Positions 27,420 to 31,860 of a stretch of 36,548 bases of DNA are shown one piece after another. The number at the start of each line of letters is the position of its first letter. The stretch's first letter is position 1. The translations under genes and the position numbers were made by a program. This DNA is from a virus: positions 1 to 36,548 of IMG/VR virus record IMGVR_UViG_3300028025_005791; one strand, given 5' to 3'. Under the pieces are notes generated by a model. That model was not told where the DNA came from. It was given only the letters and a program-made list of their open reading frames with translations, and did not search any database.

Positions 27420-29252
27420 GTGAAGGTGACTCTGAAAAACGGTGACTGTTTAAAAGTCCTGAGCGGCATGGCCGATAACTCAATCGATGCAGTCGTTACC
27501 GATCCTCCCTATGGCATCTCTTTCATGGGAAAGAAGTGGGACTACCAGATACCGAGCGTCGATGTTTGGAAGGAGTGCCTTCGCGTCCTTAAGCCCGGCG
27601 GGCATGCCCTTATTGCCTGCGGGACACGCACTCAGCACAGGATGGCTGTTAACATCGAGGACGCTGGTTTCGAGATCCGCGACGTGGTCACTTGGCTGTA
27701 CGGATCGGGCTTCCCCAAGTCCATGGACGTTAGCAAGGCGATTGATAAGGCGGCGGGTGCCGAGCGCGAGGTCGTTGGGCGGGAGGTTTATCGAAAAAAT
27801 GATTCCAATCACGCACAGAATGGTCTCTACCATAATGGGCTTATCCAGGATGGGAAAATGTCTAGATCTTGGGATATTACAACCCCCGCCACCGACTCCG
27901 CTAAGCAATGGCAAGGATGGGGCACCGCCCTTAAGCCGGCAACCGAGCACATGACTTTAGCTCGCAAAAACGGTATAGAACTCACAATCTTTAACGACGT
28001 GAGTGAGTTGCTATGCCTGTATCTGTCGATTGTCTTAGCTGCGGAAAACAATTCAACGTTAAGCCAAAAAGGGTCCGCCGAGGCGTCAAGTATTGCTCAA
28101 TGGATTGCCGAAAGCGGCACCAATACACTGGGCGCTTTGAGCGGTCGGATGGATATATTGCGATCCGCATTGGCAAAGACTACGTTCTTGAGCACCGCCG
28201 AATTATGGAAAACCATATTGGACGACGTCTCAAAAAACATGAGCACGTTCACCACGTTAATGGCGTCAAGTCTGACAATAGAATTGAAAATCTTGAAGTG
28301 CTTTCTGTTGCGGACCATACAAAGGAGCACGCCCCAATCAGGGACAGATCCAGGTGGATTACTGTCCGCTGCACCTATTGTCGAAAGCCTTTTAGCAAGC
28401 GCAAGCGTCAAGCTGAGCTGCATTCTAAGCACAGATGCGGAATACGATGTCCTGCGCGATTCGGGCTCACTTACCGACAAGCTAAACGTAAATTCTGACT
28501 TCTGGACCCTCGCCCGCAAGCCTCTTGAGAAGGGGCTAACCGTCGCCCAGAACGTACAGAAGTGGGGCACGGGGGCGATCAATGTGGACGGGTGCCGGGT
28601 CGAGACCAATCTTGAAGCTCAGGATATGTCGCGCGGTCGAAAATCTAATGGAAAGATGGGCTATCAGGGGAACGAAGGCGTTGAAATTCACATGGCCCCA
28701 AGTCCTCTAGGTCGCTGGCCCGCCAACCTAATCCTAGACGAGGAAGCCGCGGCGGCGCTGGATGAGCAGAGCGGGACGCTTAAGAGCGGAACCGGGAACA
28801 AAAATAAATCTAATAAAGAGAACGGAAAAACCCTAGGAAGCGGACTAGGTAAAGGGAATGGCGACGGCGTCGGGGGCGACTCCGGCGGTGCCTCCCGCTT
28901 TTTTTACGTCGCCAAGGCGAGCAAGTCCGAGCGCAATGCGGGACTTGAAGGGATGCCAGAAAAACTTGTCGAGATTGGGGATGAGCGTCCAAGTGGAAAC
29001 TCTTGGGAACGAAGAGACAAGAGGCAAACCGCCACGCGCGCCAATCACCATCCCACTGTGAAACCCGTCAAACTCATGTCCTACCTTTGCCGCCTGATCA
29101 CGCCCACGGGCGGAACGGTGCTCGACCCATTTATGGGAAGCGGATCAACCGGCGTTGGCGCAAAAAAAGAAGGCTTCTGCTTTATAGGTATCGAGCTAGA
29201 TAAAGAATATTTCGAAATTTCAAAAGTCCGCATCAAAGGGAGGTCCAAGTGA
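27420..29252 (+). CDS. DNA adenine/cytosine-N4 methyltransferase interrupted in frame by an HNH-gene insertion
   Basis: A 610-codon frame from GTG 27420. The N-terminal part has NGDCLKVLSGM and the catalytic motif TDPPYGISFMGKKWD (motif IV, about residues 28-42). The C-terminal part has HHPTVKPVKLMSYL and LDPFMGSGSTGVGAKK, ending FIGIELDKEYFEIS (motifs X and I). The order IV-TRD-X-I is that of beta-class N6/N4 enzymes. Codons 184-362 do not resemble the family. They coincide with an HNH endonuclease gene in another frame (28013-28498) and are flanked by TLARK at 179-183 and 363-367. Without the 184 codons the protein would be 426 residues, normal for the family. Whether the long product is active is unknown. 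The insert falls just before the target-recognition region. Confidence 0.8.
   Translation: MKVTLKNGDCLKVLSGMADNSIDAVVTDPPYGISFMGKKWDYQIPSVDVWKECLRVLKPGGHALIACGTRTQHRMAVNIEDAGFEIRDVVTWLYGSGFPKSMDVSKAIDKAAGAEREVVGREVYRKNDSNHAQNGLYHNGLIQDGKMSRSWDITTPATDSAKQWQGWGTALKPATEHMTLARKNGIELTIFNDVSELLCLYLSIVLAAENNSTLSQKGSAEASSIAQWIAESGTNTLGALSGRMDILRSALAKTTFLSTAELWKTILDDVSKNMSTFTTLMASSLTIELKILKCFLLRTIQRSTPQSGTDPGGLLSAAPIVESLLASASVKLSCILSTDAEYDVLRDSGSLTDKLNVNSDFWTLARKPLEKGLTVAQNVQKWGTGAINVDGCRVETNLEAQDMSRGRKSNGKMGYQGNEGVEIHMAPSPLGRWPANLILDEEAAAALDEQSGTLKSGTGNKNKSNKENGKTLGSGLGKGNGDGVGGDSGGASRFFYVAKASKSERNAGLEGMPEKLVEIGDERPSGNSWERRDKRQTATRANHHPTVKPVKLMSYLCRLITPTGGTVLDPFMGSGSTGVGAKKEGFCFIGIELDKEYFEISKVRIKGRSK
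27969..28505 (+). mobile_element. Homing-endonuclease-type insertion inside the methyltransferase gene
   Basis: The segment between the two TLARK codon blocks (27954-27968 and 28506-28520) is AT-richer than the neighbouring gene. It consists almost entirely of the HNH gene plus 44 bases before and 7 bases after it. The period from one TLARK block to the other is 552 bases, a multiple of three. There is no room for a group I or II intron, and the HNH product is out of frame with the host gene, so it is not an intein. Exact borders are uncertain by a few codons. Confidence 0.65.
28013..28498 (+). CDS. HNH homing endonuclease with two zinc fingers
   Basis: A 161-residue protein in frame +2 relative to the methyltransferase. 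An in-frame TGA at 28004-28006 fixes ATG 28013 as the first start. Domains: N-terminal zinc finger C-L-S-C ... Y-C-S-M-D-C (7-32); a region FERSDGYIAIRIGKDYVLEH and R-R-I-M-E-N; the HNH core H-V-H-H-V-N-G-V-K-S-D-N-R-I-E-N-L-E (about 78-95) with catalytic His pair and Asn; and a C-terminal zinc finger C-T-Y-C ... C-G-I-R-C. This is the layout of free-standing phage homing endonucleases. The RBS is weak (GAG-type). It probably spreads by cutting intruder-free methyltransferase genes, inferred from family behaviour. Confidence 0.85.
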   Translation: MPVSVDCLSCGKQFNVKPKRVRRGVKYCSMDCRKRHQYTGRFERSDGYIAIRIGKDYVLEHRRIMENHIGRRLKKHEHVHHVNGVKSDNRIENLEVLSVADHTKEHAPIRDRSRWITVRCTYCRKPFSKRKRQAELHSKHRCGIRCPARFGLTYRQAKRKF

Positions 29253-29626: not shown

Positions 29627-29941
29627 ATGAACTATCCAGTAAAGATCATCAAGGGCGAAGACAAGGTGCTTCTATTTTTGCACCAACTGTCGGACGGTCG
29701 TGCGCTTGACCTCACCGGAAAGACGGTCAACTTCAAACTCAAAATAAACTCAGTACTCACGACGATCGCGGCCACGGTGACTTCGGCCGCTGCGGGTGAG
29801 GCAACGTTGGCGCTGACAGATGCTCAAACACTACTGCTCGCAAGCGGGGTTTTGAATATCGACTCCTACGTGGCCGACGGTGCAGACCTGACCATCGTCC
29901 AGTTCTATAACCAGATCCAAGTGGCCGAGGCAATCGTATGA
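29627..29941 (+). CDS. BppU/Ig-like N-terminal fibre domain protein
   Basis: A 104-residue protein with AAGAGGAGAG upstream of ATG 29627. The pattern 'F-L-H-Q-L-S-D-G-R-A-L-D-L-T-G-K-T-V-N-F-K-L' followed by A-x-A-G-E-A-T-L-A-L-T and Y-N-Q-I-Q-V is that of the BppU-type beta-sandwich domain that joins receptor-binding proteins to the virion. It overlaps the collagen-like fibre gene (ATGA). The two may form one appendage. Confidence 0.65.
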   Translation: MNYPVKIIKGEDKVLLFLHQLSDGRALDLTGKTVNFKLKINSVLTTIAATVTSAAAGEATLALTDAQTLLLASGVLNIDSYVADGADLTIVQFYNQIQVAEAIV

Positions 29942-31860
29942 CGTGCGTACTCAAGGGCATTGTCAGGACTCTACAAGACGGCACCTTGCTAGATGGCCCA
30001 TTGACCGGAAAGGTCTTCGCCCCCTTGTCTTATGCTTCAATAGGGCCGCCGGGGGCAGATGGCGAGGACGGTGCTGACGGTGCAGATGGCGCTCCAGGAA
30101 GCCTTATCCTAACAGGATCGGGCGCTCCTTCTTCAGGCGCTGGCATCATCGGTGATCTCTATATTGACGTGGCCAGTTCCAATCAGAGCTACTACCGCAA
30201 AAACGGCGTATCCACTTGGCTTTTCATTGCGGATCTTAAGGGTCTGCAAGGGGTGCCAGGAAGCGACGGTGCGGATGGCCTAGATGGGATCGATGGCGCA
30301 GACGGTGCTCCCGGACTGGATGGAGATGACGGGGCCCCGGGCGCTACGTGGTTTCGCACGGCGGGAGTACCGAGCTCAGGCCTCGGCGCGAATAATGATT
30401 TTGCCATTGATACTGACTCCTCGCTCTTCAACGTCTACTTCAAAATGGGCGGTAGCTGGAATTTAATCGGTAACCTCAAGGAACTGACCGGCCCGGCCGG
30501 TGGAGAGTTGACGGGCACCTTCCCTAACCCCGCTCTTTCCACCGCCATCAAAACGTTTCTTCTTGCGCGCGCTAACCATACCGGCGTCCAACTTGCCAGT
30601 ACCATTTCGGACTTCACGACGGCCGCTCAGTCCGCCGCCGTCCAGAATGACTTGTCTAGTTCGGCCGTAAAGGCCCCGGCTGCGGATGCTGTGAATACCG
30701 CGCTGGCCGGCAAGATGACCGATCCTATGACTACCAACGGCGACTTGATCACACGGGCCGCAGGCGTTCCTGCAAGGCTCGGTATCGGAGCGCCCGATGC
30801 CATTCTTCGCGTGGTGGGCGGTGCCCCGGCATGGGAAGAAGAAAACCTCATGCAGGATATTGGGGACGGGTCGGATGGAAACCTAACTTTGTCCGGGGCG
30901 CTGACGGCACCGGACATTCTTTACTATGACACTCTAACCCTCAATTCCATCGCGGCACTCAATCCGGATGGCTACATCATTTACGCCAAGACCTTAGACC
31001 TTTCGAACGCTCCCGCCGGTGCTATTTCCAGGAATGGAAACAACGGCGCTCTAAGCAGTAGCAATAGCAGCGCAGCGGGAGGTGCGGCGTTCACGGCCAG
31101 GGTGCTCGCGACCAATGCGGCCGGCGGTGCAGGTGCGGCCGGTGTAACCAATAACGGTGTCCAAGGCGCAGCGGGCGGGGCCGTGACAATCGGAAACGGC
31201 GGAAACGGCGGGGCCAGTGGTGCATCGGGCGCAGGGGGATCAGGCCTTGCAGCGGCGGCAATTGCCGGTGGTGCGGTCGCGACGACAATTCACTTCGGGC
31301 GCTTTGAATATCAATTCCTACGTGGTGCTACTCAGGTGTCAGGCGGTGCAGGTGGCCGTGGCGGTAACTCAGGAGGTGGCGACGGTGCCAACTCTTCTCG
31401 AGGCGGAGGAGGCGGCGGCGCAGGTGGGGCCGTTCTCGTTCTTTACGTGGGCGAGATCATAACCTCTCCTTCGACTCCTGCGGGCGCGATCACTGCCATT
31501 GGCGGGATTGGTGGACGACAAAACAATCCACCGGCCGCTGGAAACGTGGGCGGCGCGGGCGGCGCGGGCGGCGGCGGTGGTGGATACATCTACATTGCGT
31601 ACGTTAAAAAGACGGGCCCAGTTATTGCTGACCTTATCGATGCATCCGGCGGAAACGGCGGCAACGGGTCGAACGGGCTTGGGACCGGGATTGGAGGCAA
31701 CGGCGGGGCAGGCGGAAACGGTGGAAGAATTCAACTCTTCAACGTGACCACCGGCCTGGGGACACTAACAGTTGGCGCGGCCGGATCTGCAGGCACGGTT
31801 GGCTCTGGAGTCACCGGCGGCGTCGGCGGCCAGGGCGGATCTTGCAAGGTTTCACTTTAG
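29938..31860 (+). CDS. Collagen-like and glycine-rich fibre/adhesin
   Basis: A 640-residue protein. Residues about 36-54 and 102-135 are uninterrupted G-x-y triplets (start GPPGADGEDGADGADGAPG), that is, collagen-like trimerising segments. Each is followed by a similar 40-residue unit (GAPSSGAGIIGDLYIDVASS versus GVPSSGLGANNDFAIDTDSS), an internal duplication. After a helical stretch (about 190-260) and a knob, residues about 370-640 are extremely glycine-rich (GGNGGASGASGAGG, GGRGGNSGGGDGANSSRGGG). These resemble polyglycine-II sandwich adhesins such as the S16 gp38 tip. Likely a trimeric receptor-binding fibre. It is unusual that the gene sits between portal and MuF genes rather than with the tail genes. 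Confidence 0.75.
   Translation: MTCVLKGIVRTLQDGTLLDGPLTGKVFAPLSYASIGPPGADGEDGADGADGAPGSLILTGSGAPSSGAGIIGDLYIDVASSNQSYYRKNGVSTWLFIADLKGLQGVPGSDGADGLDGIDGADGAPGLDGDDGAPGATWFRTAGVPSSGLGANNDFAIDTDSSLFNVYFKMGGSWNLIGNLKELTGPAGGELTGTFPNPALSTAIKTFLLARANHTGVQLASTISDFTTAAQSAAVQNDLSSSAVKAPAADAVNTALAGKMTDPMTTNGDLITRAAGVPARLGIGAPDAILRVVGGAPAWEEENLMQDIGDGSDGNLTLSGALTAPDILYYDTLTLNSIAALNPDGYIIYAKTLDLSNAPAGAISRNGNNGALSSSNSSAAGGAAFTARVLATNAAGGAGAAGVTNNGVQGAAGGAVTIGNGGNGGASGASGAGGSGLAAAAIAGGAVATTIHFGRFEYQFLRGATQVSGGAGGRGGNSGGGDGANSSRGGGGGGAGGAVLVLYVGEIITSPSTPAGAITAIGGIGGRQNNPPAAGNVGGAGGAGGGGGGYIYIAYVKKTGPVIADLIDASGGNGGNGSNGLGTGIGGNGGAGGNGGRIQLFNVTTGLGTLTVGAAGSAGTVGSGVTGGVGGQGGSCKVSL
30043..30342 (+). repeat. 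Two collagen-like G-x-y coding tracts with duplicated spacer
   Basis: Triplet-repeat coding DNA at about 30043-30099 and 30241-30342, built from GAYGG-type units (GATGGC, GACGGT, GCAGAT). Spacer units after each tract are related at protein level, which suggests duplication of a tract-plus-domain module. Confidence 0.6.

Follow-up and report, generated by a model that had tools for sequence, protein, structure and literature searches.

One stretch of DNA in an uncultured tailed phage appears to make two proteins. A putative HNH homing endonuclease gene is inserted out of frame between the two halves of a beta-class DNA methyltransferase (MT) gene, and the MT frame stays open across it. The element is very likely an out-of-frame HNH homing gene of the type known as the ShiLan domain, in which the host gene is read straight through to give an enlarged MT and the HNH is made from an internal start. 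The window (the whole stretch analysed, 36,548 nucleotides) is a 36.5 kb phage record with terminase, portal, head protease and major head genes, and the 610-codon MT frame (27420-29252) lies directly 3' of the portal gene. Elsewhere in the window, positions 29938-31860 encode a protein with collagen-like GPPGADGEDGADGADGAPG repeats and a Gly-rich C-terminal half, which is probably a tail fibre. The parts of the MT gene and its insert are as follows.

27420 to 29252, + strand: beta-class MT reading frame, 610 residues, GTG start, a single uninterrupted frame read through the insert
27501 to 27512, + strand: catalytic motif IV, DPPY, MT residues 28-31, near-invariant in 51 MTs
27945 to 28496, + strand: the insert, 552 bases or 184 codons, defined by the spacing of two copies of a strand and missing from uninterrupted homologues
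27945 to 27968, + strand: first of the two strand copies, EHMTLARK (MT residues 176-183), located at the element's 5' end; the duplication is found in all nested copies listed
28013 to 28498, + strand: HNH endonuclease, 161 residues, ATG start, frame +2 relative to the MT, matching HNH_3 (E = 1e-10) and PHROG HNH families
28497 to 28523, + strand: second (original) copy of the strand, DFWTLARKP, residues 360-368, from the junction alignment
29124 to 29147, + strand: AdoMet-binding motif I, DPFMGSGS, from motif comparison of MTs

The MT frame matches N6_N4_Mtase (E = 1.3e-33), both of its ends match PHROG DNA methyltransferases, and its structural matches are TTHA0409, CcrM, M.BceJIV and RsrI. 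The insert separates the catalytic half from the target-recognition and AdoMet half, and the MT motifs are intact, including those beyond its far side. The sequence-only reading had proposed a 552-base insertion with both frames open. This is borne out by the two open reading frames and by the strand copies (E176-K183 and D360-P368), which are spaced exactly 184 codons (552 bases) apart. The comparison with uninterrupted homologues agrees: the MTs of Mycobacterium phage Kanye (409 residues) and Pontimonas phage phiPsal1 (424 residues), as well as 77 uninterrupted MTs from IMG/VR, are without the 184 codons.

The residues that open the insert are similar to those that follow it (EHMTLARK and DFWTLARKP), and the HNH stop codon TGA (28496-28498) overlaps the first codon of the second strand copy. 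Because of the duplicated strand, the exact ends of the insert are ambiguous by a few codons. Aligned junctions, with phage ShiLan included, place the insertion point at a conserved TALKP/xxEP site of one MT family, and the nested copies share the pattern TALKPxxExxxxAxKPL, insert, xxEPIxxARKPLxGTV. Therefore, the element appears to enter between TALKP and xxEP, bringing its own copy of the strand that follows. In an AlphaFold model of the window MT, the first strand copy (residues 175-183) forms the strand, and the insert is a helical lobe of low confidence (pLDDT mostly 35-65, with most of the MT core at 80-97). According to this model, the insert probably adds a largely helical lobe of 184 residues to the MT and leaves its core able to fold. 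We propose that, with an insert length that is a multiple of three and a strand copy of its own, the MT would be read through as one protein; the ribosome would continue straight across the insert and yield an MT of 610 residues that carries a tolerated lobe.

The claim that another frame encodes a complete zinc-finger HNH also holds, given the HNH_3 and PHROG matches and the intact catalytic and cysteine residues, which are invariant in relatives. Four-cysteine zinc sites flank the intact HNH core on both sides. The structure model of the HNH has a pLDDT of 86, and its closest solved fold is I-HmuI, a weak match; when the HNH sequence was searched against solved structures, nothing was found.

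The ShiLan domain was described first as an insert with a patchy distribution among mycobacteriophage methylases (Gosselin 2023, PMC9957025) and was later shown to contain an HNH in another frame (Arsenault 2025, PMC11855218); there is one further announcement (PMC12613952). The window element is, on sequence grounds, a new, diverged homologue of this published domain. The two share a homologous MT, the same insertion site, a third-frame HNH with flanking zinc sites, an MT frame free of stops, duplicated residues at the start of the insert, and a negative search for an intron or intein. They differ in that the window comes from an uncultured phage, is at most 42% identical to the mycobacteriophage copies (the HNH is 41% identical to that of ShiLan), and has an insert of 184 codons rather than about 202; in addition, the window HNH starts at an ATG about 69 bases into the insert, whereas the published ShiLan start is a GTG at 18. 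The ShiLan insert itself is 99.8% identical to that of Pollywog. The hidden HNH in gp60 of Mycobacterium phage Pacc40 (PMC11855218) is also an out-of-frame endonuclease-like reading frame within an open methylase frame, but it differs from the window element in MT family, position and endonuclease family. In the accessible parts of the literature on the ShiLan element, we found no account of selection on both frames, of Shine-Dalgarno starts, or of a wide distribution outside mycobacteriophages, and likewise none of HNHs lying out of frame elsewhere in MTs, at several sites and in three cases within intein-like inserts.

Could the MT frame be open by chance? Such an explanation would hold that the insertion is recent, that the MT is dead or dispensable, and that luck and GC content have left the frame open. 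The window by itself is ambiguous and only suggestive on this point. Its MT frame through the insert has no stop codon, and the other alternative frame over the same HNH has 14-15. The MT frame is the easier one to keep open, as a stop arises only from xTA-R or xTG-A in the HNH codons. Synonymous resampling with the codon usage of the HNH itself predicts about 2.7 stops, with a probability of about 0.06 that the frame is open, a value that leaves some room for chance; with the codon usage of the MT exons, 4.3 stops are expected (P = 0.007). Thus, openness in the window alone is only modestly unlikely.

The comparison across relatives is, at the level of sequence, decisive for stop avoidance. 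HNH relatives were collected and each was checked for nesting in the same MT. Once HNHs sharing over 80% identity had been removed, the set nested at the insertion site of the window element comprised 53 non-redundant copies (49 complete, one with a broken N-terminal half and three on cut contigs). These copies span 31-67% GC and contain no MT-frame stop, against about 127 expected from synonymous resampling, a procedure that ignores phylogeny although nested copies share ancestry. Stop avoidance is seen in each of the GC bins covering 31-67%. Among the 49 complete copies, the third frame carries 526 stops where 515 are expected; in 43 free-standing HNH relatives, the equivalent frame carries 241 where 233 are expected and is open in none of them. 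Both the free-standing control and the GC spread argue against shared ancestry as the cause. The HNH protein sequence itself is affected by the MT frame, since a methionine is followed by a residue that forces an MT-frame stop in 0 of 119 cases in nested HNHs and in 17 of 97 in free-standing ones. The two MT halves lie in one frame in nearly all nested copies.

With all 53 copies open over this GC range, the controls closed and the MT motifs intact, an MT frame open by luck is extremely improbable. Chance openness in AT-poor DNA, taken separately, was ruled out by the GC-binned family counts and the free-standing controls. The shuffling check that the sequence-only reading had named thus divides: an open frame of this length is almost common for the window alone, and is clearly not so for the family. 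The suggestion that selection keeps the MT translatable is supported by the family counts. In a few copies (L011 and L013), the MT N-terminal half is broken or missing. In one of these (L013:2400-4366, 31% GC), an apparent cytosine methyltransferase gene upstream replaces the N-terminal half, and the MT frame still runs unbroken across the HNH and on into the C-terminal half.

Constraint also extends to the residues of the MT-frame peptide. The wobble base of an HNH codon is the second base of an MT codon, and therefore synonymous resampling of the HNH gives an expected level of conservation for the MT-frame residues. Of 149 MT-frame columns in nested copies, 40 are more conserved than in all 300 simulations; in free-standing copies, none of 108 columns is. 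With the nested set reduced to sequences no more than 60% identical (21 in all), nine columns still exceed all 500 simulations, and at 50% identity (9 sequences) none does, so that the signal in the residues weakens once only 9-12 very diverged sequences are left. For pairs 40-50% identical, the third bases of fourfold codons common to both members agree 1.27 times as often as expected in nested copies and 1.08 times as often in free-standing ones. A specific example is Leu94 of the HNH, whose wobble base is T in 51 of 53 copies (Leu in the MT frame) and G in the remainder (Trp); C, which would give Ser, is avoided even in GC-rich phages. The composition of the peptide is shifted as well: Asp and Glu make up 9.8%, compared with 4.4% expected from host codon usage, Arg makes up 3.5% compared with 7.8%, and Gly is also below expectation. 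These shifts are stronger in nested copies than in the free-standing control. The MT-frame consensus includes ...SLNIVsSW..IL...STSTT.T...lTTDLKTLnSlLS.ITPesII... As far as sequence comparison can tell, the relatives settle that the MT frame through the insert is under selection, both in its openness and in its own amino acids.

An MT frame kept open for the sake of the HNH rather than for MT activity, with passing ribosomes opening the HNH start site or preventing transcription termination, could account for stop avoidance alone, and a hairpin does lie over the HNH start in the window. The residue conservation and composition bias of the MT-frame peptide, together with MT motifs that are still intact beyond the insert, make this explanation unlikely.

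Mobile endonuclease genes within phage genes and without an intron are known from Aeh1 nrdA/mobE and T4 gene 60/mobA. In those systems, the host gene is split into two reading frames or bypassed, whereas the window MT is one open frame. A split gene of the Aeh1 nrdA type was rejected, as the MT halves lie in one reading frame and are not separately terminated and started. The sequence-only reading had raised, as an alternative, a bypass or processing step like those of T4 gene 60 and mobA. In a bypass, as in T4 gene 60 or the mitochondrial byps, the ribosome would leave at the first strand copy and land at the second, giving an MT of normal length, and the duplicated strand flanking the insert could supply the matching take-off and landing codons. 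However, a skipped sequence needs neither an open frame nor conserved MT-frame residues, and both are present; moreover, many copies show little conservation of the repeat in their DNA. We consider bypass highly improbable, and this part of the earlier proposal is not supported.

Removal of the insert by self-splicing, either of the RNA as an intron or of the protein as an unrecognised intein, would fit the homing-like distribution, and the duplication at the 5' end resembles a feature that PMC11855218 discusses for group I introns. An intron, however, would not need an open, residue-constrained MT frame. No Rfam match was found in the window or in 12 nested loci except an unrelated RNA, the folding z score of -1.83 is not notable, and only about 66 bases of the insert lie outside the HNH. 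No intein match was found in the window MT, and none at the insert. Self-splicing is accordingly very doubtful. Among specific candidates, a group I or group II intron or other RNA element was rejected on the negative Rfam and folding results and the small amount of non-coding sequence, and an intein at this site was rejected for want of a splicing-domain match in the host frame; the view that the insert is neither intein nor intron was thus sound. The window element resembles an intein with a homing endonuclease in that a homing element is translated with the host protein, but it is without splicing blocks and its endonuclease lies in another frame.

In the preferred explanation, read-through with a second product, the HNH would be translated from the same mRNA, probably by internal initiation, as the start-site sequences suggest. 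A Shine-Dalgarno sequence of at least 5 nt at proper spacing precedes 26 of 53 nested HNH starts; of 211 control starts that share this relative frame, only 5 have one. The accessible text of PMC11855218, on phages reported to infect Mycobacterium, states that no ribosome-binding site was found and proposes leaderless initiation; we found no stop-avoidance test in it. In ShiLan and its close relatives, GGAGG lies four bases before the GTG homologous to the ATG of other copies, and leaderless initiation is therefore not needed. In several close relatives of ShiLan, Pollywog among them, a stop in the HNH frame precedes this homologous position, which means that the upstream start as published cannot apply generally. 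The GTG at 18 bases is not common to the ShiLan-type family and was not treated as defining. In the window, the HNH start is the ATG at 28013, about 69 bases into the insert, and not the published GTG at 18. It has a weak Shine-Dalgarno sequence, GTGA, 10 nt away and within a hairpin:

27972 to 28017, + strand: hairpin over the HNH start codon, -17.8 kcal/mol, from folding

It is possible that this hairpin couples HNH translation to MT translation in the window copy. As a general coupling mechanism it was rejected, since accessibility in the family is 0.43, compared with 0.47 in free-standing copies.

The patchy distribution of the family and its transfer between diverged MTs point to mobility. 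Pairs of HNHs 92-99% identical sit in MTs only 42-73% identical, which indicates that, at the level of the family, the element moves. We propose that the HNH would cut MT alleles without the insert and spread by repair. Searches for relatives found no close relative of the window's own copy; a search with the C-terminal half of the window MT returned only four loci at 42-50% identity and no empty-site copy of this allele. Prokaryote genomes hold 25 HNH relatives, few of them close.

Eight more out-of-frame HNHs lie within genes of this MT family, at sites other than that of the window element, and the MT frame is open over each. Five of the eight use the other frame, which is harder to keep open, and together the eight have no host-frame stops, against about 50 expected. 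They include the following:

L008:1905-2570, L015:2133-2585 and L101:1785-2360: HNHs inside intein-like inserts at GSGFPKS, in the harder frame
L003:1453-3315 (Escherichia phage BUCT618): an HNH of a different family at a different MT site, after KSANVSKQID, with the host frame open over 200 codons and a partial duplication of the site
L106:2104-2469, L114:3807-4310, L149:2877-3248 and L160:4168-4530: second nested HNHs at four further MT sites, host frame open

The three in intein-like inserts have no host-frame stops, with 14.9, 8.4 and 10.3 expected for L008, L015 and L101; their identification as inteins rests mainly on splice-block motifs read by eye, with a weak Pfam match in L101 only (E = 0.0017). 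Separately, three loci (L088:608-2932, L092:277-2601 and L093:274-1947) carry an in-frame LAGLIDADG-like insert in the MT N-terminal half, without recognisable splicing blocks. This insert is reported as a second homing endonuclease in PMC9957025.

With several sites of one MT family, both alternative frames and three cases in intein-like inserts, we think it reasonably likely that dual coding is a third way, besides introns and inteins, in which homing genes are tolerated in protein genes: the selfish gene would evolve so that the host frame encodes an acceptable, selected domain. The results correct the idea that the hidden HNH is without a ribosome-binding site. They turn a mycobacteriophage curiosity into a widespread phage phenomenon with statistical evidence for host-frame selection. 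With about 150 codons, 53 diverged copies and a free-standing control, this ranks among the clearer examples in nature of extended double coding on a single strand, and it provides a direct test of the coexistence between selfish genes and the gene they invade.
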